Shown one piece after another: positions 24,275-48,990 of a DNA stretch of 64,000 bases. Position 1 is the stretch's first letter. Each line of letters opens with the position of its first letter. The notes under the pieces are model-generated. The model was not told the origin of the DNA and searched no databases. It worked only from the letters and a program-made list of their open reading frames with translations. Origin of the DNA: Zygnema cylindricum (lineage: Eukaryota > Streptophyta > Zygnematophyceae > Zygnematales > Zygnemataceae); contig JBBHKE010001644.1 of NCBI GenBank assembly GCA_037447655.1, positions 61,083-125,082 of the forward strand. Direction: 5' to 3'. Both the position numbers and the translations under genes were made by a program.

Positions 24275-27200
24275 ATGGCAATGGCGAAAACTGTCTTTTT
24301 TATCCTTTTAGCTCTAGTGGCCAATGCTCAAGGTGAGAATAACAAGTGAAAGACATTTTCTAACATTGTAACCCTTTTTAAATATTGAGATTGTTTGTTT
24401 TTTTTTAATGTTGAGATTGTTTATTGAACTAAAAGTGTGAATATTTTCATGCTTTTTTTTGCTTTACAAGGGAAGGAAATAGCTTTGCATTCATATTTTT
24501 TTTATAGCAAATTGGTTTTCACCTACAAATTGTGTCTTAGGATTTTTGCTAATTCATGTTTGTCGTTTTCTGATGTACGGCTTCATCAATTGAAACTAAA
24601 CATTTTCCTTTTTTTTTTTTTTTGTGGTTTTGTTTTTATGTTTGCAGCCGCGCCATGCAGTAAGCTCCCTTTTCTCCTTGTTACGAACGACAGTTTTGTC
24701 CTTTTGTGCCCTTCGAATATTTTTGAATATTCGATTTGTTTTTCATATTCGTTTACTTTCCCGCGCTGAAAAACGAAAAAATATTTATTTCGCTTCGTGT
24801 GAACACTGAACAGACACTGCGCGCCAATTTTTAAATAATTTTAACGTCTATCGGTTAAAATAAAAAATGTACTTGCAAATGAAACGGCGGCCTAATCGCC
24901 ACCGTCGATCGCGTTTTTTTTTTTTGGCGGTTTTTAAAGTCACGACTACGAAATTCACCAATCTTCGGACTCAAATTTTTGATTTTTTTTTTTTTTTTAA
25001 TTTTTGATCCGGTCTTACATTGCATGCATGCATTTTTAAATTTTTAAATAAGCTTATTGGCGTCAATTCTCTCTCTCTCCTTCTTCCCTCTCTTCCTCTT
25101 TCTCACTTTGATTTTGAGGACCGGCCATGTCACCGCTCCCTCTTTTGTCCCCTCTCTCCCTATCTCCCTCGCTTCTCCCTCTCTCCTTCTCTCCCTCTCT
25201 CCTCTCTCTCCCTCCCTCCCTCCCTCCCTCTCTCCCTCCCCCACTCTCTCCCTCTCTTCTCTCCCTCTTTTCCTCCCTGTCTCCCTTGCTTTCTCCCTCT
25301 CCCTCTCTCCTTCTCTCCCTCTCTCCATCCCTCCTTCCCTCAATTTATTAACCTCCTTCTCATTATCATTATTATACCCCTTATGATCCCTTCACTATCA
25401 TCAATATAGTTGTTATAACATAACTCCTTTATGTTATTTATACCCTTTATAAATTCCTTTTCAAACCATTACCTCTCATAAATTATCTTTTTCTCATTAG
25501 TACTTCATTCCGTACAACCGGATTTTCCGCCACTTATAACATACGCCCTCTCCAACATAACTTCTCATTCTTTTTTTTATGAACCGCATGACGTCATCAC
25601 TATTTCTCCTCGTCATTATCATTGCCGTACAGCCGGATTTTCCGCCACTGGGCCCACATGCCCTCTCCCTCCCTCCCTCCCTCCCTCCCTCCCTCCCTCC
25701 CTACGTCCCTTTCTCAATCCCTCCCTCACCTAAACCTTTTCTTCCCATTTTTTCTCTCATTCTTATACCCTTCTCCTTTCTCTCTCTCTCTCTCTCCCTC
25801 CCCTCCTCCCTCTCTCCCTCCCTCCCTCCCTCCCTCTCTCCCTCACCTCCCTTAACCTCATGTTTATACCTGTTTAGAATAACTTCTTCCGTGATTCTGC
25901 CTTCCGTACAGCCGGATTCTGCGCCAATGATGCCACGTGTGACGACACAGGCGCCTGCGACTGCTCCACTGCGCCGCACACTTCTGGAGTCTTCTGCCAA
26001 AACTGCTTCCCCAACTTCTCGCCGCTCTCGAACTGCATGGACGGTCTGTCTCCCTCTCTCCCTCTCTCTCGGTCTCTTACTTTCTCTCTCTTTCTCCCTC
26101 TCTCTCTCTCTCCCTCTTTCTTGGTCCCTTTCTTTCTTTCTCTCGTTGTCTCTCTCTCTCTCTCTCCCTCTCTCTCTCTTTCTCTCTCCCTCTCTCCCCC
26201 TCTCTCTCCCTCTCTCTCTCCCTCTCTTCCCCTCTCTCTCCCTCTTTCTCCCTCTCTCTCCCCCTCTCTCTCCCTCTCTCCCTCTTTCTCCCTCTCTCTC
26301 CCCCTCTCTCTCTCCCTCCCTCGCTCTCCCACCCCGCAAAGCTCTCCCCAAGCCTCTCCCTCAATCTCCCCCATTTCTTTCCCTCTCTCTCCCTCTCCCT
26401 CTCCCTCTCCCTCCCTCCCTCGCAGTGATAAACCCTTGCATCACCTGCACCAACTCCAGCACCGACTCTTGTGCGGACACTCCCAACATCTGCCCTCTGT
26501 ACGGAACTTGCCTCAACATTGACGCCGGAAAGTACACCTGCAAATGCAGTAAAGGGTTTTCCGGCGTTGTGACCAATGCCACATACCCCAACGGCGTCTG
26601 TGTAGGTAAGAAAAATCATTTTTTTTTCTTTTCAAATTTCAATTCCCTTTTGGAGATATGTTGAGGATGTAAAATAAGAATAATTTCGAGATTTATATCT
26701 CATGTTCCGTTCTTGTATATAGTAAAGGAAAAAAAATGTGGGTGTTTGATTTTTTGGGAATATAATTTAAGTTTTCGTATATAAGATCGGTGAAAGTGAG
26801 ATTTTAAGAGTATTTTGGGTAAGCGTTGGGAATAGATTTCAATAATGTTTGTGGTAGGAGATTGAATTTGGATAATTCTTATTTTCATTTTGTTTGGATT
26901 TGGATTTTGATTTTTTTTGTGGAAAAATCTTGAGTATTTTGTGTGGATAAAAAAAATAAATTTCAACCTTTTTTTGGAGAAATGTCTAGTGTGTTGGTAA
27001 TGAAAAGAATTTCGATCGTCTTTCGTATTAATGTTGCACGTGTATAAAAATGGGACAAAAATGTGTGAAAGTCTATACAAATGGGACAAAATGTGTTTCA
27101 AAAGGTAAATGGGGGATAATGTGTGAAATTGTAGAAAAAATGGGACAATGTGTTTTAATGTGACAGAATGTTTCAAAAAAATTCTGGTAAAATGGGAAAT

Positions 27201-28165: not shown

Positions 28166-28739
28166 ACTTCTTAGTAAAAAAAAAAACAAAAAGCAGGATA
28201 AATTAAAAAGCACAATGGTAGCCCATCTAAGTCCAGGGTACAAAAGGGGTGGAATGGCCAAAACTGAAAAACTACAATACAAAACAAATAGAGCGATGGG
28301 AACAAAAAGAAAAGAAAAGAAAAGAAACAATCAACAAGGAGAACATAAGCACCCAAACTCAAAATAAAAAGCACGACAACTCAGAAAAGCAAAACTACAA
28401 CCCCAACCCCAAATCAATTAAATATCTACCAAAAGCAACCCCGTAAGTCTCCCCAGCCTGGGGGAGCACGTTGAGGGAGTTCCGGAACACGGCGACGATC
28501 CATAACCCCAACAGCCGATCGAAGGATAATAGAAGCCTGCACTCGCTGTAAAGCCACCGATAAGCGTTGACGATAAAAAAGAAGTAAGGACCGAAGAAGG
28601 AGGGCTCCCAGGTCCTCGGCGCTCGAAAGCACAACGAGCACAAGTATGGAGAAACTCGTCCAGTAAACACCCAAACAACCAAAGATCCCGACCGCCATCG
28701 GAATAAAGTCATCCATAGGGTCCCGGTGGGCATAATCAC
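28166..28739 (-). mobile_element. LINE 3' end, fragment a (separated from fragment b by the LTR element)
   Basis: Minus-strand 3' part of a non-LTR retrotransposon. It parallels 47,600-48,175 closely: GCAACCCCGTAAGTC, CGACGATCCATAACCCC, GACCGCCATCGGAAT, GGTGGGCATAATCAC. It encodes the extreme C-terminus, related to DGFIPMAVKIFGRLG in fragment c, then an A-rich (plus-strand) 3' UTR. It stops at ATCAC 28,735-28,739, exactly where the LTR retrotransposon begins. Confidence 0.8.
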
Positions 28740-28980
28740 TGTCGTGCATGACAGTACAACCGTGAATGGCATGCATCACATCCCGCGTGGGTCGCCGAAA
28801 AACACCAGAAAATGAATGACCATTACATATGTACAGTATTTGTGACCACAATCGGAGGACAAAGAATATATACTGTAAAAAATAATAAATGAATATGCTC
28901 AAAGAAACAAATTATTCCGAACACATGGACTTAGCAAAGAAATAAAAGACAAAACAAGATCAGGTAAGTAAGGATGGAAT
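28740..28980 (-). repeat. 3' LTR remnant of the methyltransferase retrotransposon
   Basis: Bases from TGTCGTGCATGACAG to GTAAGTAAGGATGGAAT are nearly identical to 39,633-39,873, the outer part of the right LTR. The other about 0.94 kb of that LTR is missing here. Instead a C10 run (28,981-28,990; G10 in element sense, polypurine-tract-like) joins it to the integrase/PHD stop region. Two or three mismatches over 240 bp are visible. Confidence 0.8.
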
Positions 28981-28996
28981 CCCCCCCCCCAGCTCC

Positions 28997-30091
28997 TTAG
29001 CCTGCGGAGGAGCTGGTCAGGACAGCTGGTAGATCGCGACACCCGTGGCAAAACCACTGCCCAGCCGGGATAGTGTGCAGAGGTGGAACCAGACACTCCA
29101 TATGGAATCCCAGATTGCAATAGTCACAGAGGAGCATTGTTGTTTCTCCATCGGATCGCCGGCATAATTGGCACTCAGTGGCCTCGGTAATCGGCATCCG
29201 CCACGGGTCCATGCTGTGGGAAAGGTCAGGTAGATAGCAAGGAGCACAATTTTTCGAATGCTCCCGCAAAGTTCGCGTGTCGGCCCCTTGTAAGCTTAAT
29301 AATCCATGAGCGTCGATTTTGGTTATCCTCAAAATGTGAGCTGACACATCCGTGTCGAGTGTGTCGAAAGTTTGCCGTCGCAAATAAATGTAATCCCCCA
29401 CCCGAAAGGGTTTTTGTTGTGGCCGGTAACTGCCACTGCGAGTCGTAGCAAACCGTAAGGAGTCGCGATGTTGGGCGATCTGCAAGTTTTCAAAAGCCAT
29501 GGGCATTTCTCTAGCAAAAAGCAACGCTCGGTTAGTTAGTTCTTCCAAAAATAGAGAATCAGACATAAGAGGTAGAGGTAAGCTCACGGTTTTCTGTACA
29601 TTCCTACCTAGTAGTGGTTTTCGGCCAAATAACACATAATAGGGGCTGAAATTTGCCAGACTGGCCTGTACAGACATGCGATAACCCATGACAATATATC
29701 CCAAAGATTCATCCCACACTGTAATCTGTTTTTCTAAGCAATGTTTACGCAAAGCACGCTTAAAGGTTTGTACAACTCTCTCTGCCAAACCGTCTGCTTG
29801 AGGATGATCTCGGCTCGTCCGCCGGTGATCGATTAACGCCTCGTCTAACATCTCCTGAAATTCACTGCGGAACTCGGTTCCTTGGTCGATAAGTACTTCT
29901 GCGGGGGCTCTGTATCGGAGAAGCACATGCTCTTTGAAAGTTGCCGTGGTGAGTTTAGCAGTTTTCTGTGAAAGGGCCACAACTTCCACCCATTTGCTGA
30001 AATTTTCGATCATAATCATAATGTACTGCTTGCCCCTTCGAGAAATGGGAAAGGGACATGCAAGATCACACCACCACCTGTAAAAGAGACC
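28997..30091 (-). pseudogene. Integrase core with C-terminal PHD finger (end of pol)
   Basis: Open from 30,019 to a stop at 28,997, and continuous in frame with the upstream pol segment except for one TGA at 30,089-30,091. The rve integrase core shows YIMIMIENFSKWVEVVAL, LIDQGTEFRSEF (second Asp), and AERVVQTFKRALRK (Glu); the first catalytic Asp is in WWCDLACPFP just downstream of the TGA. After the GPY/F-like region, the last about 60 residues form a PHD zinc finger at 29,039-29,173: CQLC, CDYC, H in FHMEC, CHGC (C4HC3 spacing). A PHD finger reads histone H3 tails in other proteins, so it may steer integration here, as chromodomains do in chromoviruses (inference). Confidence 0.85.
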
Positions 30092-32540
30092 TCAAATAGG
30101 TAAGGGCTGAAGGGAGGTCTGTCGGTTAGAAAATGAAGTTCGTAGCCGGTCATAGGTGCTACATTCCTGCAACACAGCCGCCACATCAGCCTGCATGCCA
30201 GACCACCAATACCGTGCCTGTACCAAGCTCAAAGTTCGTTTGGTGCCATAGTGTCCAAGGTCAATATGAATTTGGTTAATAAGTGATAGTCGCTCCGTCG
30301 GTCGTGGGACGTGCCGGTGACTTCCATCTGAGAGTAGACGAATAAGTGAGCCCCCCATCCATAAGTAACTCTGGGCTCTCTTACGAACACGCTCCTCTTC
30401 CATTGGTAAGGTGCCCGCCCGAAAAGACTGAGTAGATAGGAAAAGGATTAAAGGGCTGTCCCGCCATGGATCGTGTTCGATTTTGTGATATGTAGGTGCG
30501 GAAAAACTGTAGATCAGATGTGCTCCGGCGGATAGGGAGGCAACTGTTTCGCCATCAAAATCCTGTCGTACCCCATTATCAATGGAGTTGGGCAAAGGAT
30601 TCTTGGAGAGCCCGTCGGCATTCAAGTTGAGGAGCCCGTGTCGGTGAATTATTTCCATATCATATTCCTGTAAAATAAGAGCCCAACGGGCTAATTTGCC
30701 GGATAGCTTGTCATTGGTCATGAGCCAATGCAACAGTTGATGGTCAGTAAGAAGGGTAAAAGGCTTGCCATAAAGGTAATGACGGAAATGCACAATACCC
30801 CAAACTGCGGCAAGGCATTCTCCCTCATAACTACTGGAATTTGATTCCGCTTGGTTGTTGCTTCGACTGGCATAAGCCACCACATATTCTTCACCTGTGA
30901 GTTCACGCTGAGTTAGGATGGCCGCAATACCTGGCTTACCAAAGTCTGTCTGTAGGCAAAATGGTAACTTATGATTCGGTGGACGAAGGATGGGAGCGGT
31001 GGACAGTGAGTCCTTTAATCCCTGAAATGCCTCGATCTGAGAAGGTCCCCACGTGAACGGGACAGATTTCTTCAAGAGTTCATTTAATGGTGATGCAAGT
31101 GTGCTGAAACTAGGAACAAACTGTCGGTTATAATTGGCTAACCCCTGAAATGCACGCAAGCTAGTCAAATCCGTTGGTGCCGGTAGTTTACTAATTGCAA
31201 CCACTTTGACTTCTAGCGGAGTAATTCCCTCAGATGAGATAAATTGCCCAAGGTATGGAAGCCCTTCGGCCCCAAAGGTACATTTGGCGAATGACATTTA
31301 AGTCCTACCTTTTTTAATTCCTTCAACACCCACTCTATATGCACTGCATGTTCCTCAATAGAGGCTGAAGCGATGATTAGATCGTCAATTTACAACGGGC
31401 AAACTTACATCCCCCCAAGACTGAGTCCATGACTTTCTGGAATACTGCCGGTGTATTTTTCAGTTCAAAAGGCATAACCGCCCATTCCCAACGTCCGTCA
31501 CTACCCCAAAATGCAGTTTTGTGTCGATCTTTTTCCTTTATTTCGATTTGATTAAATCCCTGTCGCAGATCTAAGATGCTAAAATATTCAGCTCCGCCCA
31601 CGTGATCAAAAATGTCCTCGGCCAACGGCATTGGATGTCGGTCTTGGATTGTTCGTGAATTCAGTTCTCAATAGTCCCCACACATGCGACGTTCTGTAAA
31701 ATTCCCCTCCACGTCTTTCTTACGAGGCATGACGGTAGGAGCCGCAAAGGTGGAATCGGACCTATAAATCAGACCTGCCTCTTCTAACTCTGCGCATCGT
31801 TTGTCCACGGATTCCTATTCAGTTTCTGATAGACGATGCTTGGGCTTAAATATAGGTCTGTCATCTTCCAGGTCAATAGACATTTTGTAAGTTGTGTGTC
31901 GACCTAAGTCTTTCATGGAGAAAGCAAATGCGTCTACGTTCCGGTTTATGACTTTATCTAACAGTTCGTGTTCAGTTCCTGTTAGTCCAGTTCCGAATTT
32001 CCATGTCGGTTTTTCAGGCGTGTTAATGGTCATGGCTTCCATGGCTTGTGCAAATGCTAGCTGTTCATCTGCTATCAAGGAGTGACCCAACCCATACTCG
32101 ACAGGATGCTGATGCAAACAATTTACTACGTGATGCCAACTTCTAGACGGAAATGCAGCTGTCCAGTGTGGTGATGCTCGTACTGGAACATGAGATCTAG
32201 CGGCCGTGTATGCTGGGAGAGACCAACTCATGTGACTAGGTTCCAAAAAATCATAAATAGTGTGATTTGTGTCAGACTTAGCGGGGAAAGGAAAAAGAGC
32301 GAGCTGCAAAGTTGTACCCCGAAGAGAAGGTGACGATTTGGAAGCCGTGTGTTTAAATGGTGTATGTGTATGCCCCCCCCCAGCTGATTGAGACGGATGG
32401 TTCTGTGCGTATTGACCGGCTGCGAACCCCATGCCTAAGACAAATGACAGTGATTGGGGATCCATGACACGACCAAGTAAGGTGCAACGTTGCCTCTCGG
32501 TGAGTCCCGGAGCAGTAGTGGTGCCTGGATGAAATGTAAA
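30092..32540 (-). pseudogene. Reverse transcriptase, RNase H and integrase zinc-binding segment
   Basis: From 5' to 3' on the minus strand: linker after the methyltransferase (31,815-32,465); RT with CGDY-ELNSRTIQDRHPMP, YFSILDLRQGFNQIEI and MPFELKNTPAVFQKVMD (31,377-31,660); the catalytic IDD near 31,385; thumb/connection AKCTFGAEGLPYLGQFIS; RNase H with QTDFGKPGIAAIL, YEGECLAAVWG and LTDHQLLHWL; then integrase HHCC with H-LGH...C. Damage: in-frame TAG at 31,813-31,815, TGA at about 31,663 in place of an expected Arg (CGA to TGA), a one-base frameshift right at the YIDD site (about 31,383), and another near 31,300. Confidence 0.87.
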
Positions 32541-34941
32541 AGATGTTCTCGTTCTGTGGCAGTAGGTTCCTCTAAGCTGCCTGTATGAGTATTCTGAAGC
32601 ATGCGCGGTTCATCATGCGAGTATGCGTGAGAGTGTGGATATGCAACTAGTGTAGGCAGTGCACGTAGTGGTTGGCCCGGGATGTTAAGACCAAATGCCG
32701 GAGGATAGTCAGTCTGTATACAGGTCTGGACCTTATGAAATGGAAGAAGTGCGTCCTGGATGGAAAGATTAGGTGGACGGACAGCGAGGTTAGCTTCTCG
32801 GAGCCGACCCATGTCCACCAGGTTAGTCCACTTGGAACGAACCCGGTGGGCCAGCGAACCGTGGCGTGCGGCATCAATGATCAATGGTGGTCCAATTAAT
32901 GATTCAATGCGTTTATAATCTGCGAGGACCGTAGGTCGAGGGTCATTATAAGCTGCGACGTTCTCTAAGATGTATCCAAAAGGACGGTCCAGTTTTTGGA
33001 AGAAGTGGATAAGACGCACCACCTCGAAAAACAACTTAGTACGTGGATTTGCGAGACCTAAACCTTTCCCGGCCCTGGACATGCCCTGACATTCCCATCC
33101 GGCAAAGAGGAGATCAATTGGTTCCAATTCCATTAAATGATGATTTCCTATTAGCCGGATATTGTTGTTTTTGAAGATTTAGTTTCGTGCGTACTCGTCG
33201 TTTCGTGCGTTTGCGATGTTTAGTGTGTACGCGGTTTTTAGTGCGTACATGTTCACCAAGTATAGCGTTGAGGTTCGCATGGTTTCATTGATTGGTTGAG
33301 ACGTACAAAAGTACTAATTGAGTGACGCGAACAAACATATGTAAAAGTACGGTTCGCGTAAGTGAAATGGACGGCGGATCACGAAGCGATCCGATGTATG
33401 AAATTCGAAGTGTATATTATTGTACGTCGCACGTACGAAACAAAATGCGACAGGGGACATTTATTAAAAAGGACGCCGCCGGTACGGAACGTCTTCTTTT
33501 GCAAGTGGACGTTAGATTTGACATGCGTCATTTATGACGAAGTACGTAATTCAGGTACGGACAAATTTGGATGGTTTGACGTCGTTTCGTCAAGTGGACT
33601 TTGGGACCACGTGGCGCGACATCAAGGGTGCCGAATAATAGCTACGGACGGCGGACAAAGGCAGCCGTAATATTTCAAGTAGTGGGAACGCGAAATCGCG
33701 TCAAATCACAAGATGTATGTTTTGGACGTCTCACATTCTTTGACGAAAATCAAGGAGTTACGTTGAGTGACTCATCATGACTCAGCATACGATTCTGTGC
33801 AATTGTGTGTACTTGTAAATATTTGGAACAACATTGGTTTGTCTTATTTGTATTAATAAATTAGTGTTTATTATGACAGTTTTTATTTACGTAATCATTT
33901 AGGGTTTGGATACTCTAAATTGTGAGTGTTTATGTGTCGTACTTCTAGACAAGTGTACGCTTATGATTGCTTGACTCTCAGGTGTACGCTTACGATTAGC
34001 TTATTCTTAGTAGCAGTTTATTATGGTTAAATAGGACTTAATAACAGTTACGTAATTTACGTTGGTTATTTTGACACTTAGTGATTCGTTGACAGCTCAC
34101 AAGTGTATATATAGGAATGAGCTTTGTTAGTAATAAATCATCAATGCTGGTTAGTAAAGTGGGGACCAAAGATGTAGTATTTTAGGGTTGTCGATTAGGT
34201 CATGCACTTTGAATGATATAATGATTATTTGATTATACTTTGATTATACTTTTGTTTATGTGTGATGCATTTGTTTGTTATTATTTATTTATGTTATTTT
34301 ATATATGTTTGATATGCATTGTTTATGCATTTGTCCTAGGGTTTGTTTATGTCGATTATTCCATCAAACCTTAGATGCTGTCATAGGATTTGTTTATGTC
34401 GATTATTCCATGAAAACCTAAATGTTGTTTGTTGCGTCTGTGTACGCATATGGAGGATGCATTTCAAATGATTGTTCATTGGCCTAGCTTTGCTTAGTTT
34501 TTTGCAGGATAGTTTGGGTTGCTTCTGCGGTCTATTTTAGACCAAAGAACAACAAATATCTTGTGGCAACGCCGAATGCATATCGTGAAAAGCAGACTGA
34601 GGTAAGAGATGAGGATACTGTTCGTGCAAGACTTGACAGTGGTGCAACTGAGCGCGTCTGGCCAAAGGATCAATATCTACGGAATAGTAATGTTTTATCA
34701 GAAGACCGTTCCGAAGGCAAGAGAGAAGTGAAGTCCCTATTCCTGCAAAAAGGTCTAAGATGACGAGACCGTTTTGGTGAGGTTGTAAATTGACCGATGT
34801 AAATTTAATGGGCAAGAACCCGCAAGGATCTATTGTAATGGAGGGTGGATCTGGAATACTAGATAAAGGAATTGGTATAGTAAACTTATAAAGCTGGTCA
34901 AACTCCGAAGAGTTTATGATAAATCCCGGTGTACTAAATAA
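32435..34941 (-). pseudogene. C5-cytosine DNA methyltransferase domain inside pol, split by a solo LTR
   Basis: Lies between protease and RT in the same frame. N part (34,537-34,941): PHQNGLVILDLFAGIGTSLL is motif I (SAM binding), followed by VDIDPLARR (motif II). C part (32,435-33,162): LLFAGWECQGMSRAGKGLG is motif IV with the catalytic Cys, though the usual PCQ is ECQ; YILENVAAY is the ENV motif VI; HGSLAHRVRSKWTNL is motif VIII; ATEREHLL is the IX region. After a frameshift near 32,535, RCTLLGRVMDPQSLSFVLG looks like motif X. A 1.39-kb solo LTR separates the parts, and the frame agrees on both sides of it. It would methylate cytosine in DNA if intact; target preference is unknown. It is too short for plant MET1/CMT regulatory domains, so it is an element gene, not a host one. 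Confidence 0.88.
33163..34554 (+). mobile_element. Solo LTR inserted in the methyltransferase domain
   Basis: About 1.39 kb starting TGTTGTTTTTGAAG and ending AGAACAACA (TG...CA ends), flanked by GATAT at 33,158-33,162 and AATAT at 34,555-34,559 (ATAT shared; one mismatch in 5). It contains a TATATATA box at about 34,107 and AATAAA at about 34,133, suggesting plus orientation. No coding region was found inside. Taking it out lets the methyltransferase frame run on, which confirms the boundaries. Confidence 0.83.
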
Positions 34942-35106
34942 TTATGGTAAACTTGGGGGATATGGTGAGATTTCATCCGCGGTTAGAGATTTAAGGATGT
35001 CTGCACCTATGCCAATTGTGGCATAGGCTGGCAAGATCAGCGCCGAATGAGCCGTAGTAGGCATGGGTTGTCGGGCCGAGATAAGGGGTAAGCAAATTTT
35101 ACGTTT

Positions 35107-35199
35107 CGGAAAGTTGTTCGGTCTGTACGAAAATGTCTGATCATGCATATCAAGGAAAGTTGTTCGGTCTGTACGAAAATGTCTGATCATGCATATCAA
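35107..35199. repeat. 46-bp tandem duplication breaking pol
   Basis: GGAAAGTTGTTCGGTCTGTACG... occurs twice in direct contact, followed by a C9 run. Because 46 is not a multiple of three, it shifts the frame between the protease and the methyltransferase leader. With a single copy the protease frame continues into 34,942-35,106. Confidence 0.88.
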
Positions 35200-36490
35200 T
35201 CCCCCCCCCAACTCGAAAAATAACGTCTTGACCGACCAAGCATTCATAGTCACTCCACTTGGTGAACAAGGCGTGAGCATAAATTTCTGCGAAATCCATC
35301 GCAGACTTACTCTGAAACTGAAAACAGATTGGTTCTATCGTAATACCGAGGACTGGCTCTGTGGTACCTGCAGAAATCAATAGACGTGTGGTAGTGGGTT
35401 GTAACTTATCTGCAGTAAGACCTATTTTGAGGGCAAAATCAGAACCGAGGATAATTGGCTTTGCGCCTGTATCCATGAGAGGAAGTGCCGGAGCAAACCC
35501 ATTAACCGTAAAAACGCCCAATTTGTTATCTAGAAAACTGATGTGAGGAGTGAGGCTAGACCGCTCTTCAAGAGTAATAGCTTGAAGAGAGAGAGCATTA
35601 CGATGGTTTTGTAATGCTTGTAACGCAACTGCTGAAGGAGTTAGATCTATAGTTTGTCCGTTGCTATCCAACTCGGGAAGCATGGTGGACAGGATGGACA
35701 GACGTTCTTTGACCTTATATGTGTCTTGTATACTCCTCTCTAAAATAGTTAATGCCTCAGCGGTGATGCTTGAGGCCGTTTCTGGAATAGGTGAGCGAGG
35801 TTCTTTGGCAAATGATAATGGGATTCGTGTGTTAATGGATTTTGACTCGCGATTGTGATCGGGAGTCCCTTTAAACTGAGCTGCCCGCTGTTGAACAGTG
35901 GACTCCCGAAGAGATCGCCCAGCAAAAGAGGGCATATGGACCACAGTTCGAGCCATTCCAGTTAATTGCGGTTTGACTTGCGCCATAAGCGCGGCAAACT
36001 GCTCCTTCATCATGGCTGCGACGGTAGCCTGCATCTCGGCTTTCTCTCGGTCCCTCCTGCTGATTTTCTGAGGGTTGTCTTTCTCTACCCCTTTGGGTAG
36101 AGTGACCAATTTTGCCGAGCGAGCAGGTATACCGCCGTTTTTGATTTGATTTTGATAACTGAAATCGGGATTTTTAATGTGGCATCGATGTACATAATGA
36201 CCCGTTTGATTACAATGAGTACACGTGGCGGTCTTATCCGGACAGCTGCGTGCGTCGTGGCCAGTGTTACCACATCGAAAACATATACGAACACTAGGGT
36301 TGGTTGGTAATGTTCCCATGGCCGGAGCCCTTGGAGGTCTCGGATTAGGCCATGGGTTGCGTGGGTTAGGATTAGGATTCAGGTTTGCATTGGGAGAAGA
36401 CTTAGGTCGCTCGTGAGCGTCCCACCAGCTGGTCTGCATTTCATATGAAACTCTATGGGCTCCATTGCCACACAGAATTCGCAGGTCCAA
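35150..36490 (-). CDS. Gag zinc knuckles and retroviral-type aspartic protease
   Basis: About 446 residues open on the minus strand. Two CX2CX4HX4C knuckles lie at residues 70-83 (CFRCGNTGHDARSC) and 90-103 (CTHCNQTGHYVHRC), preceded by an Asn/Pro-rich linker. They are typical RNA-binding nucleocapsid motifs. A coil-prone middle follows, then the protease: PLMDTGAKPIILGSDFA near 338-352 (catalytic DTG) and CLVGQDVIF near 417-425. No ATG fits the left boundary; the frame meets a TAG at about 36,502, so Gag upstream is missing or frameshifted. The right end is broken by a 46-bp tandem duplication (35,107-35,199), after which the frame resumes at 34,942-35,280. Confidence 0.82.
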   Translation of the reverse strand: MDLRILCGNGAHRVSYEMQTSWWDAHERPKSSPNANLNPNPNPRNPWPNPRPPRAPAMGTLPTNPSVRICFRCGNTGHDARSCPDKTATCTHCNQTGHYVHRCHIKNPDFSYQNQIKNGGIPARSAKLVTLPKGVEKDNPQKISRRDREKAEMQATVAAMMKEQFAALMAQVKPQLTGMARTVVHMPSFAGRSLRESTVQQRAAQFKGTPDHNRESKSINTRIPLSFAKEPRSPIPETASSITAEALTILERSIQDTYKVKERLSILSTMLPELDSNGQTIDLTPSAVALQALQNHRNALSLQAITLEERSSLTPHISFLDNKLGVFTVNGFAPALPLMDTGAKPIILGSDFALKIGLTADKLQPTTTRLLISAGTTEPVLGITIEPICFQFQSKSAMDFAEIYAHALFTKWSDYECLVGQDVIFRVGGGIDMHDQTFSYRPNNFP

Positions 36491-38880
36491 AAGAAGCTAA
36501 TCTAGATAGTGCCAACTCCAACTTGATATAAACCCAAATGACTGACCCCTTGACAATTAAAACCCCAATAGAGCTTCACCCTTCTGAAATAACACTTTTT
36601 GTGTGCTCAGTTCAACTACATAATGCAAAGTTAGAATATGAGATTTGGACACATTCACCCACTTTGACTTTCCCTTAGAAATTCAGCCACCCAGACAGGA
36701 GAAGACTCTGACCGATTACACCCCTATGTAGCGTGGACTCCCCTGAGTCCGCAGCAACAAGAATCACTGAAGTTGGTCAACTGAGTTGAGAGTTATGGCT
36801 GGCCAAAGTTTGCCATTTATACAAGGTGCTCTCTGGGAGAGAGGTGGCTACCTACCCGAAATATTTGAAGTCCTAAACCCCTCTCTAAACCCTCTAGTAA
36901 TGAGGTACGGACTAATCACATTACTGTATAGTACATAAAGGTACAGATGGCGGTGTACCTTTTGTACGGTCATCGTACGACATGGCTAAAAAGTCAATAC
37001 ATGTCATATCCGGATTCGCTCTTATAATCTCCGGAATTCCGGCCTCAAAATATTTTCTCTCCACGTGGCGCCCGGTCATGCTCTATCAGAAAAGTGGTAC
37101 CGTACAAGAAAGTACAAGTGCTGGAGTACTTTCTGTACGTACATTGTACGATGTCACCATTGTGCGACATTTGTCACTTCCGGATTTGTTTTCTGCCTTT
37201 CAAGAAATTCCGTAATCCCGTACGATGTTGCCACGTGTCATCTAGAGTGGCGGTGTCTGCAAACTGCCAAATTGTCCTTTCACGATGTCGGCGCTAACCA
37301 CGGCCGTCCGATAAACATCGTCATTTAAACGGACCGTCGAAATAGATGTCCATACTATTTATTTCGTCCGGTACTAAAAGTACAGCTAATTCTATGCCCT
37401 ATATACCGTAATATAGTTAAATCGAAAACCCTACTTCTAATTATATAAATATCTACGAAACCCATTACGTCTTAGCACTAGGTCTAGACTAAACGGATAA
37501 GGCTAACGGCTATTGGGTACTTGACGGACGGTAGGTACGAGGATCAATACCTTGGTCCGTCAAATACTGTTTTGGTAAGTCTACCAAATCTACACCCTTT
37601 CTCCATAGAGAGCCTAGGCAGCCATGGCTTTAGCTCCATGTCCAGCCTTTAGTGACTACAACAAGTGTGGGGGCTTGGAGAAGGGAGTTAGAGGCAGACT
37701 GCCTTTGCTCTTTTTCCTATACTAAAACAGACCCAGAAAATACTCAAATATCAACACACACTAGGCCTGAAAATATGCTGGCCAAACAAGGCCAATGTAA
37801 TAGACAAGAAGTCGCTATCCAGGACCAATCACGGTCAGATCTAAAGAAAATGCAACCACAATGCCTATGCGAAAAGGAAGGCACAGCCTTCAGTCGTATC
37901 CTTACCCCTCTAGGTTATCGCGCTTCACAACCTATCACGCGCCTGCAACCACAAGGACCCGATTACTCACCTGTAGCGATCTGTAATGTCTCCCAGCGAT
38001 GCTCCAACCTCCTTCCAACTCCGAATCATCGAAAAGATATAGCGATCTGTAATGTCTCCCAGCGATGCTCCAACCTCCTTTCAACTCCGAATCTTCGAAA
38101 AGATATCACAGCTCAAAATACCAACGTAGTTAGTAGCCTGTTAGGGTACGCGTATCAACTTTAAGCCACGCTCTACCCAACTATTAAAGCAGTTATAATT
38201 TTATGTGATAATTCATGCAAGCTAATTTATATATTTAAATGAATATATATTTGTTTTTTTTTTCTTGGTTTTGAATATGGATTTTTTTTTTATAAGTTTT
38301 TTTAGGTTTGCTAGGTTTTCTGAGTGAGTTAATCCGGTAGGTGGACAGCAAGAGGAAACTATACCGGATGTCTAGATAAAATCGGAAATATCAAACTCTA
38401 AGCACACTAGCAACGAAACCCTAAAGATCGAAAATAAAAACAGATCAAAGCAATCCAACGAAAACAACAAGACTGGGAAAGAAACAAATTACAATAACTA
38501 GATGGAAAGAAAGCAATTGTCACCGATAATGAAGAAAAATAGAAATAAGCAAATCAAAATAAACTAGAAATAAAGAAACTAATTAACACCAGGAATACAG
38601 AAAATTAGAAATAAAAACAAATTAAGTACGGGAATATTTGCGACAGTAGCCACTAGGCCCTGAATTCATCAATATTCCCTACAGGAGTCCAATCAGCTTG
38701 TAAGAACCCTTCCTTAGCCGGATGAAAGAGCCGAGATAAGCCAGAAGCATCCATGCTTAGGCCACAAGGAATCGAGTGGGAGCATGTGAAGGCTCCAGAC
38801 AGAGAGCTGCTTGTGAATAACAGAATATGTATCTTGTCTATACTGCAATTTCGAATGCAATGGTCAAGCAACTAGAATTA
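36491..38880. other. Non-coding inner part between gag and the hAT remnant
   Basis: No convincing domains. It contains a 66-bp tandem repeat at 37,974-38,105 (TAGCGATCTGTAATGTCTCC...), an A-rich stretch 38,370-38,640, and near 38,717 a copy of AGCCGGATGAAAGAGYCGAGATAA also found in the right LTR at about 39,876. It is probably the decayed 5' leader of the LTR element with later insertions. Confidence 0.45.
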
Positions 38881-39596
38881 GAAACCATCTGGTTGGAAAT
38901 GTGCAAAATGGCGGCATTAGAGCTTGCATTCTATATCGCGATGAGGTGAAGGCGGAGTTAAACACATCTGAAACCACAAAATCTTCTCATGGCTCTCAGA
39001 AACGTGTCATATCCGATTCGGATGAACTTTCTAAATGTCCTGGATCAAGCCAAAGTAGCAAGGTACAAGGTGTTCAGTCAAAAATAATAAATACATTTAA
39101 TAGGCATAACAAGTAGGAGGTGGATGCAGCATGGGCAAAGGCTTTATTTGCCAATGGCTTGCCGTTTCGACTATTAGAAAACCAATATTTTAAGGTAGCG
39201 GTGAAGAAGATCGGGGAGATAGGGTCGTCTTACAAATTACCTCACCCAAATACCATGAGAAATCGTCTTCTATCTGAGACGAAAGTAACGGTCACTGACG
39301 ATTTGGCAATCACCCCTATCTTACAAAAAGTAGCAACGAGGAACCTTCCCCGGTGCACAGTTGCCAGCTCATGTGAGAGGAATTGGTCAACCTACAACCA
39401 TATTCACTCTAAGAAAAGGAACACATTGACAGCTAAAAAAGCTAATGATTTGGTTTGGGTCTTTAGCAATCTCAGATTATTACAAAACACTAGGAATGTT
39501 AGTTATGAAGAGGAAATGGTAGCATGGGAGGAAGAGAAAGGGGAGGTGGGAGAAGAAGAGTTTGATGAAGACATGTTTGACATACATTTGGAGTAA
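38880..39596 (+). pseudogene. hAT-family transposase remnant
   Basis: Two plus-strand pieces in one frame separated by a TAG at 39,114. The first (38,901-39,116) looks like the tail of a BED finger and linker (VKAELNTSE, VQSKIINTFNRHNK). The second (39,120-39,596) has DAAWAKALFANGLPFRLLEN, as at the start of DUF659-type hAT transposases. It then jumps to the C-terminal dimerisation domain, CERNWSTYNHIHSKKRNTL and ANDLVWVFSNLRLL. The catalytic middle is missing, so it is an internally deleted copy. It abuts the right LTR boundary at 39,633. Confidence 0.8.
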
Positions 39597-39632
39597 AGAG
39601 GGATAGGGGTGATATATACATATTCACGGCCT

Positions 39633-40811
39633 TGTCGTGCATGACAGTACAACCGTGAATGGCATGCATCACATCCCGCGTGGGTCGCCGAAAAACACCA
39701 GAAAATGAATGACCATTACATATGTACAGTATTTGTGACCACAATCGGAGGACAAATAATATATACTGTAAGAAATAATAAATGAATATGCTCAAAGAAA
39801 CAAATTATTCCGAACACATGGACTTAACAAGGAAATAAAAGACAAAACAAGATCAGGTAAGTAAGGATGGAATTCAGCCGGATGAAAGAGTCGAGATAAC
39901 CGGCATTCCTCCAAGGCCAGACAAGGTGAGTACCAGCCTGTACGGTTAGCGTCCAGACAGCAAGAAAACGCCAAGTCCACAGACGCAATTCACAAATCAC
40001 AGCAAGTAGAAAATAGTCTGGATAACCGTCCAGACAGCAAGAAAACGCCAAGTCCACAGACGCAATTCACAAATCACAGCAAGTAGAAAATAGTCTAGAG
40101 GGAAACCTTCCAGGATGGCTTACGCCGGTAGATTAGGTAAGGTCTTAATACAAAGAAAAGGAGAAGCTCAGAGACATATACTAGCATAAAACTATGGGGC
40201 TGAAAAAGGAAAAACCCTAACTCAAAAACCAGCATGTCACTAAATATTTAGGTGAAACCCTAACCGTAGAGTTCGACAAATCCCGAGAATAATGCTTATC
40301 AGAAAACGACAACCTTCCAATGTTGGATTCCCGTACTTAATTTGCAAAGGTTACTATCTTGCCAAATGGCATTTATCCTATGCTCTCACTAATCCGTACG
40401 GCTACACTAATTTTTACATGTCTCTGAGCAGGCAGGTTTCTATGTTAAAACACTGCCAGTTTCAAGAGACGACCGCTGCGTGGCCGCCTCGGACTGCCTT
40501 ACATCCACACCTCGAGGATAAAAACCCTCCCTAAGCTAAGCAAAAATGATGCATGAACCTCCAAGGGTTCATGACTTCAAACACCTGTCAAGTTTATAGC
40601 CGTTTGAATTTCTGACGTCTGATGCCGTACCGTGGTCCAGTTCCACGCTGATTTCATATTGTGTTCCCGTGGTGCCGTACGAGAGTATATTTCGACCTTT
40701 GTCCCGTACGAATCTCTAGTTGTACTTTCGGATATGTACCTGTCACGTCACCGAAACTTCAATTAGTACACGATATAATCACAATACCTGCTGACGTCTT
40801 ACGGCATGACA
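39633..40811 (-). repeat. 5' LTR of the methyltransferase retrotransposon
   Basis: About 1.18 kb between TGTCGTGCATGACAG and TTACGGCATGACA. The first 240 bp match the left LTR remnant. It contains a 77-bp tandem repeat (39,951-40,097; GTCCAGACAGCAAGAAAACG...). No tRNA-complementary primer site is obvious just left of 39,633, where hAT-related sequence abuts. Confidence 0.75.
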
Positions 40812-41880
40812 TCACACTCCTTCGCCTTAGCGGCATCACGAGCTGCCACCCCAACATGTCGAGCCGCCTGACCAACAACTGTAGCTGAAGTAGCAATAAC
40901 ACCAAAGATGGGACGGGCACCATCAAGCAAAACAACATCGATCCGACGCGAGAGAATGATATTAGAAACCTCTCCACGCACACAAAAGCCCCCTTCTGAA
41001 ACGATAGTCGCAGTGGTGTCGCGAATAGTGTCATGCGCCTGGATCAATCCTCCCCCATGGGAACAACGAAGCAAATGGACACCATCGGGCCCCAAGACAC
41101 GACCACATGCACAAACAAGAGAGCCAAGTAAAAGAGGATGGGGGAGGCCCAGGCGAAATTGGAGGGCGGTAGTGAATTGAGCAAGTGAAAATCAGAGAGT
41201 GGCCAAAATAGGTGTGGAGAAAAGCCAAGACCCAGAATCAGGTCCACCACATGAGAGAAGACGGGCACGCGAAGAATCGGAGGGAAGCGCCTTGAGAAGG
41301 TCGAATTTAATGGCGGCGACAACCCAATCAGAAATCGATTCCTGGACACGCTCAACAGATTTGGTAACAATGGTGGAGAAAATTGGCACATCCACTAGGG
41401 CATGGGGAGGAAGAGAACGTGACGCGTCCAATAGAGATCGCTGGAAGGCGAACACACCGTCTGAAACCCGGGGGAAAACAATAGCTAGAACGGGGGTGTC
41501 CCCAACCAAGAAACGGGAAACAAGAGTAGAGGCAATAAGACACCAACTTCCCAAATAGGCAGCGAGAGCAACACGAGCAGTGGATAATAGACCCAACCCC
41601 CCAGTAGAGACAGGGAGGGATGCTTGAATGCGGGCCGATGGCCCAAACTCGCGATCAAATGCCCCCGACCTAACAGAGTGTGGAGGACTTCTACTAGGCG
41701 ATCGTCAAAAGCCGAGAGAAGATAAATGTCGGAGTGGGTATAAAACAAAAGTTGCAATGCAGTTAAGCCACAAAACAAAGAGGTTTTTTGAGGAGGAAAA
41801 AGTAGAACTTGTTGGAAAAAAAGGCTCTTCAATGTGGTTGTAGTAGCTTGTACTGTTACCACTTTCAATTTTCTAGTTCT
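40811..41880 (-). mobile_element. LINE fragment b: C-terminal half of ORF2
   Basis: Continues fragment a (28,166-28,739) on the other side of the LTR element. Minus-strand frames with shifts read STARVALAAYLGSWCLIAS, VHLLRCSHGGGLIQAHDTIRD and RRIDVVLLDGARPIFG, then ARHVGVAARDAAKAKE. Fragment c has the same blocks. The arrangement suggests the region after RT in a LINE ORF2; the I/VDVVLLDG...FGDIV block may be a restriction-like nuclease fold (weak inference). 5' truncated near 41,880 and frameshifted. Confidence 0.72.
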
Positions 41881-47600: not shown

Positions 47601-48990
47601 ACCATTAACAAAAAAGGGGGCCGACTTTATTAAAAAGCGCGATGGTAAACCATCTGAGTCCATAGGAACAAAAGGAAGTAGCATTGCTAAAACTGAAAAA
47701 ACCACATGACGAGGGAATAAACAAAAAGGAAAATCAAGGCAAAACCAACGAAAATACGAAAGAATGGCAGGGAAATCGAAAACACCCATAAAAGCAAAAC
47801 CCCGCAAACAAAACATCAAAGGAAATAACTAACACGTAACAAAAAAAGCCCCCAACATAACTAATAATCTACGGAAAGCAACCACGTAAGTCCTCGAATC
47901 CCGGAGGAGAACGAGGAGGAAGTTCTAGAACACGTCGTCGATCCATAACGGCAATAGACGATCAAAGTAATATAGAATCAAACACCCGTTGTAGAGCCAC
48001 GGAAAAACGTTGACGAAAAAAAGAAGTAAGGACTGAAACAGAAGGGCTCCCCCTCTCGAACAAGCGCCGACCACAAGTACAGAAAAACTCGTCCAAAGTC
48101 ACACCCAAACGACCAAATATCTTGACCGCCATCGGAATGAAGCCATCCATAGCGTCGCGACGGGCATAATCACGCTCCTTCCTTTTAGCCGCGTCACGGG
48201 CGGCCACTCCCACATGTCGAGCCGCTTGGTTGACGACTGTAGTTGAGGTAGGGTTTGCCAAAACAATGTCACCAAAAGTACAACGCGCACCATCAAGTAA
48301 TACAAGGTTAATCCAACGCGATGGAATAATGTGAGAGACCTCCCGACGAACAGAAAATCCCCCCTCAGAAGCGATAGTAGCAATGGTGTCTCGAATCGTG
48401 TCGTGCGCCTGAATCAATTCGCCCTCATGGGAGCAACGAAGCAAATGGACCCGTTCAGGCTCGAGAACGTGGCCACAAGAGCAAACAAGGGAGCCAAGCA
48501 AAGGTGGGTGAGGGAGGCCAAGCTGGAACCTGAGGGCCGTCGTGAACTGAGCCGGCGTGAAACGAAGAGTGGATAAGATAGGGACAACCAATAGCCAAGC
48601 GCTAGAGCCAAATCAGCCACAAGACAAAAAGCATGCACGCGAAGAATCGGAAGCGCCTCAAGAAACTCGGATTTAATATCGGCGACAACCCGATCAGAAA
48701 TGGAATCTTGAACCCGCGCAACTGATGTTGTAACAAGAGTGAAAAAAATCGACATGTCCTTGATAGCAGCCGGATTAAGAGCACGTGATGCATCCAAAAG
48801 GGACCGTTGGAAGGCGAGCTCACCATCTAAAACGTGGGGAACCACGGCCGCAAGAATAGGAGTGTCCCCAGCCACAAAACGAGAGACAATAGTGGAAGCA
48901 ACAAGGCACCAACTGCCCAAATAGGCGGCTGGAGCAACATGCGCCGTCGAGAGTAAACCCAAACCGCCAGCCAAGGAAATTACAATAACC
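47600..48990 (-). mobile_element. LINE fragment c: ORF2 C-terminus and 3' UTR
   Basis: Best preserved of the LINE pieces. Minus-strand coding blocks are GGLGLLSTAHVAPAAYLGSW (48,974 down), FQLGLPHPPLLGSLVCSCGH, VHLLRCSHEGELIQAHDTIRD, INLVLLDGARCTFGDIV, ARHVGVAARDAAKRKERDYA, DGFIPMAVKIFGRLG and FFRQRFSVALQRV, with a stop near 47,962. One frameshift near 48,580 divides it. An A-rich (plus) 3' UTR runs to about 47,605. The 5' part is cut by the N gap at 48,991. Confidence 0.75.

Follow-up and report, generated by a model that had tools for sequence, protein, structure and literature searches.

A DNMT3-like methyltransferase domain encoded within Pol by an amplified Ty3/Gypsy family with split terminal repeats in Zygnema cylindricum

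The window analyzed here, a stretch of 64,000 nucleotides from contig JBBHKE010001644.1 (positions 61,083 to 125,082, forward strand) of the streptophyte alga Zygnema cylindricum, contains a Ty3/Gypsy retrotransposon on its minus strand (28740-40811; positions are those of the window) that is nested in a long interspersed nuclear element (LINE) and bordered by a 4-bp target-site duplication, GTGA. The limits of the element were set by its joined flanks, which align without a break across the insertion point to a LINE copy at ~48.0 to 48.25 kb (79% identity). This LINE fragment (47962-48612, minus strand) represents an empty-site relative of the insertion. Between terminal repeats made up of two parts, A and B, the window copy carries a CCHC knuckle, an aspartic protease, a C5-cytosine methyltransferase, a reverse transcriptase (RT)/RNase H, a DDE integrase, and a PHD finger, the best PDB matches of the last being PHF12, BAZ2B, and WSTF. 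The features, in the direction of the element, are as follows.

40812..40815, minus: 5' target-site duplication GTGA
28740..40811, minus: whole element (A ... internal region ... B), dead copy; limits from flank alignment to the LINE copy and the 4-bp GTGA
39878..40811, minus: repeat A (1-847 of its 931 positions) carrying a short internal duplication; matched by blastn to the A of copy c1344, 73-nt direct repeat
39633..39875, minus: extra repeat B joined directly to the truncated A and ending in CACGACA
38743..39632, no strand assigned: 890 bp of foreign DNA containing a hAT transposase fragment (39117-39596, plus; PF05699, E value 0.0021, below its cut-off)
38635..38742, minus: tail of repeat A (824-931) beside the primer-binding site (PBS)
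38618..38635, minus: putative PBS ATTCCCGTACTTAATTTG, an exact 18-nt complement to a segment of the window copy's repeat A
36239..36286, minus: CCHC zinc knuckle (PF00098, E value 3e-4)
35357..35509, minus: retroviral-type aspartic protease (PF13650, E value 0.0027, below the curated cut-off; alignment with the intact copy)
35108..35199, minus: 46-bp tandem duplication breaking the frame
34735..34755, minus: methyltransferase motif I, DLFAGIG
33163..34555, no strand assigned: 1393-bp insertion separating motif I from motif IV, with a 4-bp duplication, ATAT
32435..33162, minus: methyltransferase motifs IV to X, with ECQ at 33086-33094 (PF00145, E value 3.9e-10; best PDB match DNMT3A)
31298..31900, minus: RT, approximate span, with stops and frameshifts (intact homologue PF00078)
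30092..31297, minus: RNase H and integrase zinc-binding domain (PF17917, PF17919, PF17921)
29039..30091, minus: DDE integrase core and C-terminal PHD finger (PHD at 29039-29173; PF00665, PF00628)
28740..28984, minus: repeat B1, with the polypurine tract (PPT) CTAAGGAGCTGGGGGGGGGG before it
28736..28739, minus: 3' target-site duplication GTGA

The window copy is dead, its frame being broken by the 1393-bp insertion, the 46-bp duplication, stops, and frameshifts. The first-pass annotation had placed motif I, a catalytic-cysteine motif IV reading ECQ, ENV, motif VIII, and a motif X-like end between the protease and the RT of a Gypsy-type polyprotein, and all of these are present. However, its statement that they share one reading frame does not apply to this copy, since motif I and motifs IV to X lie in two different open reading frames (ORFs) separated by the insertion. 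Owing to the insertion, approximately half of the span then assigned to the methyltransferase (32435-34941) is foreign DNA. PF00145 matches the frame at 32435-33178, and no PF00145 match was found on the motif I frame (34537-34941), whereas in an intact copy the match begins at motif I. Two stretches of the insertion (383 and 853 bp) are common to another copy of the element, L003, at 99 to 100% identity.

Matches to the domain number at least 151 in the 352.8-Mb genome (2689 contigs), a lower bound obtained by scoring 150 of 1595 candidates. Ten copies were studied in detail over 16 to 20 kb of sequence each. One of them, c1344 (G000:C1344), has identical 931-bp repeats and a single ORF of 2395 residues with the order protease-DNMT-RT-RNase H-integrase-PHD, so that the order described in the first-pass annotation stands, in one frame, for the family. 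No match to a tyrosine recombinase was found in the 2395-residue frame, and the integrase is of the rve type. The repeats of the other six full split-repeat copies are 89.2% to 99.6% identical to each other, which, together with the identical repeats of c1344, indicates that the family has been active recently.

Among the matches listed, the methyltransferase domain is closest in both sequence and fold to the DNA enzymes DNMT3A and DNMT3B, with DRM2 also among the closest solved relatives in the profile search; the best solved relative is DNMT3A (E value 4e-10, PDB search). DNMT3 enzymes carry ADD and PWWP modules, unlike a Pol polyprotein, and the motif order of DRM enzymes is rearranged. The Zygnema domain has the standard order I to X, as in DNMT3; no ADD domain was found beside it by Pfam in the 2395-residue frame, which carries its PHD finger at the far C terminus. 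In chromoviruses, a chromodomain follows the integrase, whereas here a PHD finger takes that position. Motif IV reads WEC in all 26 distinct genome copies (3 of which have a stop next) and ECQ in 53 of 64 database relatives; most relatives also retain the Cys, the Gln, ENV or ENT, motif VIII, and motif X. The glutamate singled out in the first-pass annotation is thus a real and conserved feature. However, the PCQ of host enzymes used there as the yardstick is not the nearest comparison, since DNMT3A aligns with PCN at this site. If the enzyme family is active, the proline of the catalytic PC pair would be dispensable in a conserved family. A phage or viral origin of the domain was rejected, as no close relative occurs among 80 viral methyltransferase loci kept from 499 found by patterns (one permitting E or P at that site); all 80 read PCQ, and their identity to the domain is at most 34%. 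Database relatives include methyltransferase-carrying elements of other green algae. The domain tree comprises 49 database proteins and one copy from this genome (15 of 65 domain hits were omitted as too short), and its rooting on P0027 is arbitrary.

Codon comparisons indicate that the domain is under purifying selection. In 14 within-subfamily pairs, decayed copies included, the ratios of nonsynonymous to synonymous substitution rates (Ka/Ks) were all below 0.5 (0.09 to 0.44), with 8 below 0.2. In six between-subfamily pairs, the synonymous divergence (dS) was saturated and the nonsynonymous divergence (dN) was 0.15 to 0.17. The test omitted five minus-strand loci (L001, L003, L016, L019, and L020) on account of their orientation.

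The terminal repeats of the family are split. The arrangement A1-int-B1-gc-A2-B2, in which int is the internal region and gc the two bases between B1 and A2, is complete in seven of the ten detailed copies, and an eighth, c1407, lacks the 5' part. The seven full copies have the ends TGTC...GACA (one start being mutated), and six have an exact 4-bp target duplication; the seventh, c449, matches at three of four bases. A genome search for a 19-base pattern spanning the B-gc-A junction gave 133 occurrences, in comparison to 0 for the reversed control. When domain copies lying no more than 20 kb from an exact junction were considered (n = 28), the junction lay downstream on the same strand in 27, upstream on the same strand in 0, and on the other strand in 1; this test related 116 of 150 typed copies to contigs covered by 100 of the 133 junctions. 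Fourteen PPT-B ends chosen for missing the exact junction comprised eight mutated junctions, four in which B runs straight into the flank, and two unclear cases. B running into the flank can result from recombination between B1 and B2 or from insertion of a single unit. In copy C1112 (L029/L030), which ends in a second, inverted repeat A, the terminus of A forms both outer ends, and these lack a clear target duplication; this arrangement possibly reflects self-integration.

B1 is directly preceded by a G run after CTAAGGAGCT or a near variant, and a putative PBS directly follows A1. The A1/int region has a perfect 14- to 21-nt complement within A in all 10 copies compared (nine of the ten detailed copies and the window copy), a length reached in 0 of 500 shuffles for the three copies tested. 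In these self-primer/PBS pairs, both partners change together from one subfamily to another, and the window copy differs in this covarying way even from its near relative; in copy c783, the start of the exact match is displaced inward by 10 nt relative to the other copies. Tf1/sushi Gypsy elements are self-priming and have a PBS complementary to a sequence inside the long terminal repeat (LTR); in the Zygnema family, the segment of A matched by the putative PBS may likewise lie close to the 5' end of the RNA. The pairs of the Zygnema family are longer, and its repeats are split. Since the PPT abuts B1 and the PBS abuts A1, the LTR that reverse transcription would define is B-gc-A, whereas the provirus begins at A and finishes at B.

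The extra A-B end of the window copy was considered as a mirror type (A-B-gc-A-int-B). This was dropped, since B stops exactly at GACA before the foreign DNA and positions 824-847 of A occur twice. The copy is more probably A-int-B that has gained, through repair-templated insertion, the A-B end of another copy plus flank; the foreign DNA with the hAT fragment adjoins that end and has the appearance of such an insertion.

Dnmt3-domain Gypsy elements with A-coding-B-A-B repeats have been published previously. KnitGypsy-Dnmt3 of Klebsormidium nitens is described as having an intron-free Dnmt3-related domain in the Gypsy Pol frame, several copies under purifying selection (Ka/Ks under 0.2), and repeats in this order that were called DIRS-like (de Mendoza et al. 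2018, PMC5890265); as described there, it shares the domain in the Pol frame, the repeat order, and purifying selection with the Zygnema family. The same report describes SymbioDIRS-Dnmt3 and SymbioLINE-Dnmt of Symbiodinium as retrotransposon-borne cytosine methyltransferases, the SymbioDIRS domains methylating CG in yeast, and provides the precedent that the first-pass annotation had mentioned for algae. According to this account, SymbioDIRS-Dnmt3 has the same repeat geometry as the Zygnema family, but the Symbiodinium elements use a tyrosine recombinase or LINE machinery, in contrast to the Gypsy DDE integrase here. Other accounts mention methylase-encoding Gypsy and DIRS elements in green algae and charophytes, among others (2019, PMC6338049), and an unrelated methyltransferase in an algal DNA transposon (2025, PMC12477816). 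No protein labeled K. nitens was among the database relatives recovered for the domain.

As judged from its kinship, conservation, and position, the DNMT3-derived methyltransferase is probably an integral, selected Pol domain of this amplified Ty3/Gypsy family that would methylate the element's own cDNA before integration, although considerable doubt attaches to this reading. Since it adjoins the RT, the domain most likely works on newly made cDNA within the particle. The element's protease would release the enzyme within the particle alongside the RT, the enzyme would methylate the new double-stranded cDNA, probably at CG, and the PHD finger would steer the integrase to chromatin. A host enzyme of the DNMT1/MET1 type would then maintain the mark. 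Two DNMT1-RFD matches lie at one locus (G000:C2527:79997-82439), which we take to be the plant MET1-like arrangement, and this DNMT1-type gene could maintain CG marks. Elements silenced by host methylation rarely encode a methylating enzyme of their own, and a family that has many copies, was active recently, and encodes an intact enzyme, in a host with a DNMT1-type gene, makes the idea of self-methylated cDNA, raised in 2018, testable.

Several observations weigh against self-methylation of the cDNA. CpG depletion, sought as a footprint of methylation, was not seen in the element, with observed/expected ratios of 0.85 to 0.90 in the internal region and 0.87 to 1.63 in repeat A, versus 0.75 in the window outside the element. 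Among repeat A transitions, CG sites take 68 of 158 (43%) in comparison to a share of 36% of C/G sites. Depletion was therefore dropped as a line of evidence; together the two counts give no strong footprint of lasting CG methylation. Glutamate in place of proline before the catalytic cysteine could weaken catalysis. KnitGypsy-Dnmt3 reportedly showed no activity in yeast, a result its authors called inconclusive (PMC5890265). In addition, the young copies c2234 (L027/L028), c1063 (L037/L038), and c2495 (L031/L032) have different 1-nt deletions within ~45 nt of motif IV. Each of the three deletion patterns occurs once in the genome, which suggests that the lesions date from after insertion, or from the assembly, and were not passed on; chance clustering, loss after insertion, and assembly error are all alternatives. 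As a separate observation, repeat A of c2234, c1063, c2495, c2602, c1915, and c449 is CpG-rich (observed/expected 1.54 to 1.63) in comparison to that of c1344 (0.87).

The lack of CpG depletion and of activity in yeast would also suit an enzyme whose fold was retained for another job, such as methylating element RNA or binding nucleic acid or S-adenosylmethionine, and which is weak on DNA owing to ECQ. The replacement of the PC pair in most relatives, in contrast to its presence in every viral locus kept, points the same way. However, the remaining catalytic motifs are conserved in most relatives, and the nearest enzymes act on DNA, the tRNA enzyme DNMT2 scoring far lower in the profile search; this alternative is thus unlikely. 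Somewhat less likely still is a role in trans, in which host chromatin or rival elements would be the target of the enzyme and the host epigenome would be shifted in the element's favor. The integrase does end in a PHD finger of the chromatin-reader kind, and the copy number is high. However, an enzyme encoded in Pol and flanked by the protease and the RT would be expected to be packaged with the genome, and no separate nuclear product is indicated by the results. That a host gene fragment is nested here by chance, as the first-pass annotation allowed if no other copy shared the order, can be dismissed in view of the number of matches, the open frames, the order seen in c1344, and the related elements of other algae.

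The A2/B2 joint bears on how these elements integrate. In most copies, it coincides with the PBS and PPT boundaries, yet it is variable. In a survey of 20 further copies, 15 of which were readable, A comes to within 12 nt of full length in 11 and is short by 89, 428, and 738 nt in 3; in the remaining one (L129), A continues for 59 nt beyond its terminus and is followed by a second A end, which stands before B. The start of B is no more than 6 nt from its boundary in all but 3 of the 15 (L136 was judged by eye). In the first set, A is short by 226 nt in c1407 and ~80 nt in c2234, and c2495 has a 16-nt filler. Copies c1344 and c1407, which are 99.9% alike over 6.4 kb, have different joints. The imprecision resembles that of end-joined cDNA ends, and later deletions may contribute.

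From this anatomy, the following route may be proposed. The RNA 5' end would fold back as its own primer, the RT would produce (B-gc-A)-int-(B-gc-A), the integrase would cut the palindrome GACA-GC-TGTC inside one LTR, beside the PBS, instead of the cDNA ends, and the two cDNA ends would be sealed to each other by end joining. An internal palindrome cut combined with end-joined cDNA ends would yield A-int-B-gc-A-B with a 4-bp duplication. Integrase cleavage of palindromes at joined LTR ends has been described for the foamy virus PFV (PMC1180852) and HIV-1 (PMC1905944). As in those accounts, an integrase would act on an LTR palindrome, but here the palindrome is LTR-internal and its cutting would yield normal proviral ends. 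Tentatively, and as something closer to an open wager than to a probability, we suggest that a DDE-integrase retroelement integrates via an LTR-internal palindrome, has its cDNA ends joined by the host, and marks its DNA with its own methyltransferase at the exposed stage, which would explain DIRS-like Gypsy elements. Such a route would give a mechanical reason for their repeats, and the anatomy, if read correctly, breaks the rule that integrase acts on linear cDNA ends. Random opening of a two-LTR circle was rejected, since it would give half A-B-gc-A-int-B, a mirror type not observed among the 28 copies with a nearby junction. Two points count against the palindrome route: the one-sided junction order requires an unexplained asymmetry, and no target duplication is present in c783. 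One idea for why only one LTR is cut is that the other is possibly still single-stranded at that time.

Alternatively, and with less likelihood, the split repeats may be copied as such through DIRS/PAT-like reverse transcription, the variable joints being later deletions only. The geometry is the same as that of DIRS elements as described in PMC5890265, one order prevails in 27 of the 28 copies, and some odd joints belong to old, mutated copies. However, DIRS elements are defined by a tyrosine recombinase and the lack of a target duplication, whereas the Zygnema family has an rve integrase, 4-bp duplications, and TG...CA ends. Furthermore, with the PPT abutting B1 and the PBS abutting A1, canonical reverse transcription would not copy B2, and the near-identical c1344 and c1407 differ in their joints.

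Compared by description only, the Zygnema family differs from KnitGypsy-Dnmt3 in its number of matches, ECQ, PHD finger, 4-bp duplications, self-primer, and joints. What is new here comprises the related elements of other green algae, ECQ as a mark of the family, the PHD-tipped integrase, the covarying self-primer/PBS pairs, the 4-bp duplications, a repeat structure that puts the integration ends within the PPT- and PBS-delimited LTR, and the imprecise A2/B2 joint. In the literature covered, mostly open-access articles without their supplements, no description was found of such elements as self-priming or as having target duplications, repeats joined end to end by end joining, or an ECQ motif. 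Elsewhere in the window, a host-type gene with Nop and Prp31_C domains, probably PRP31, lies at 1850-2866 on the minus strand, and a long C/T-rich low-complexity tract at 25000-26400 stands beside EGF-like coding sequence, as seen by eye only.

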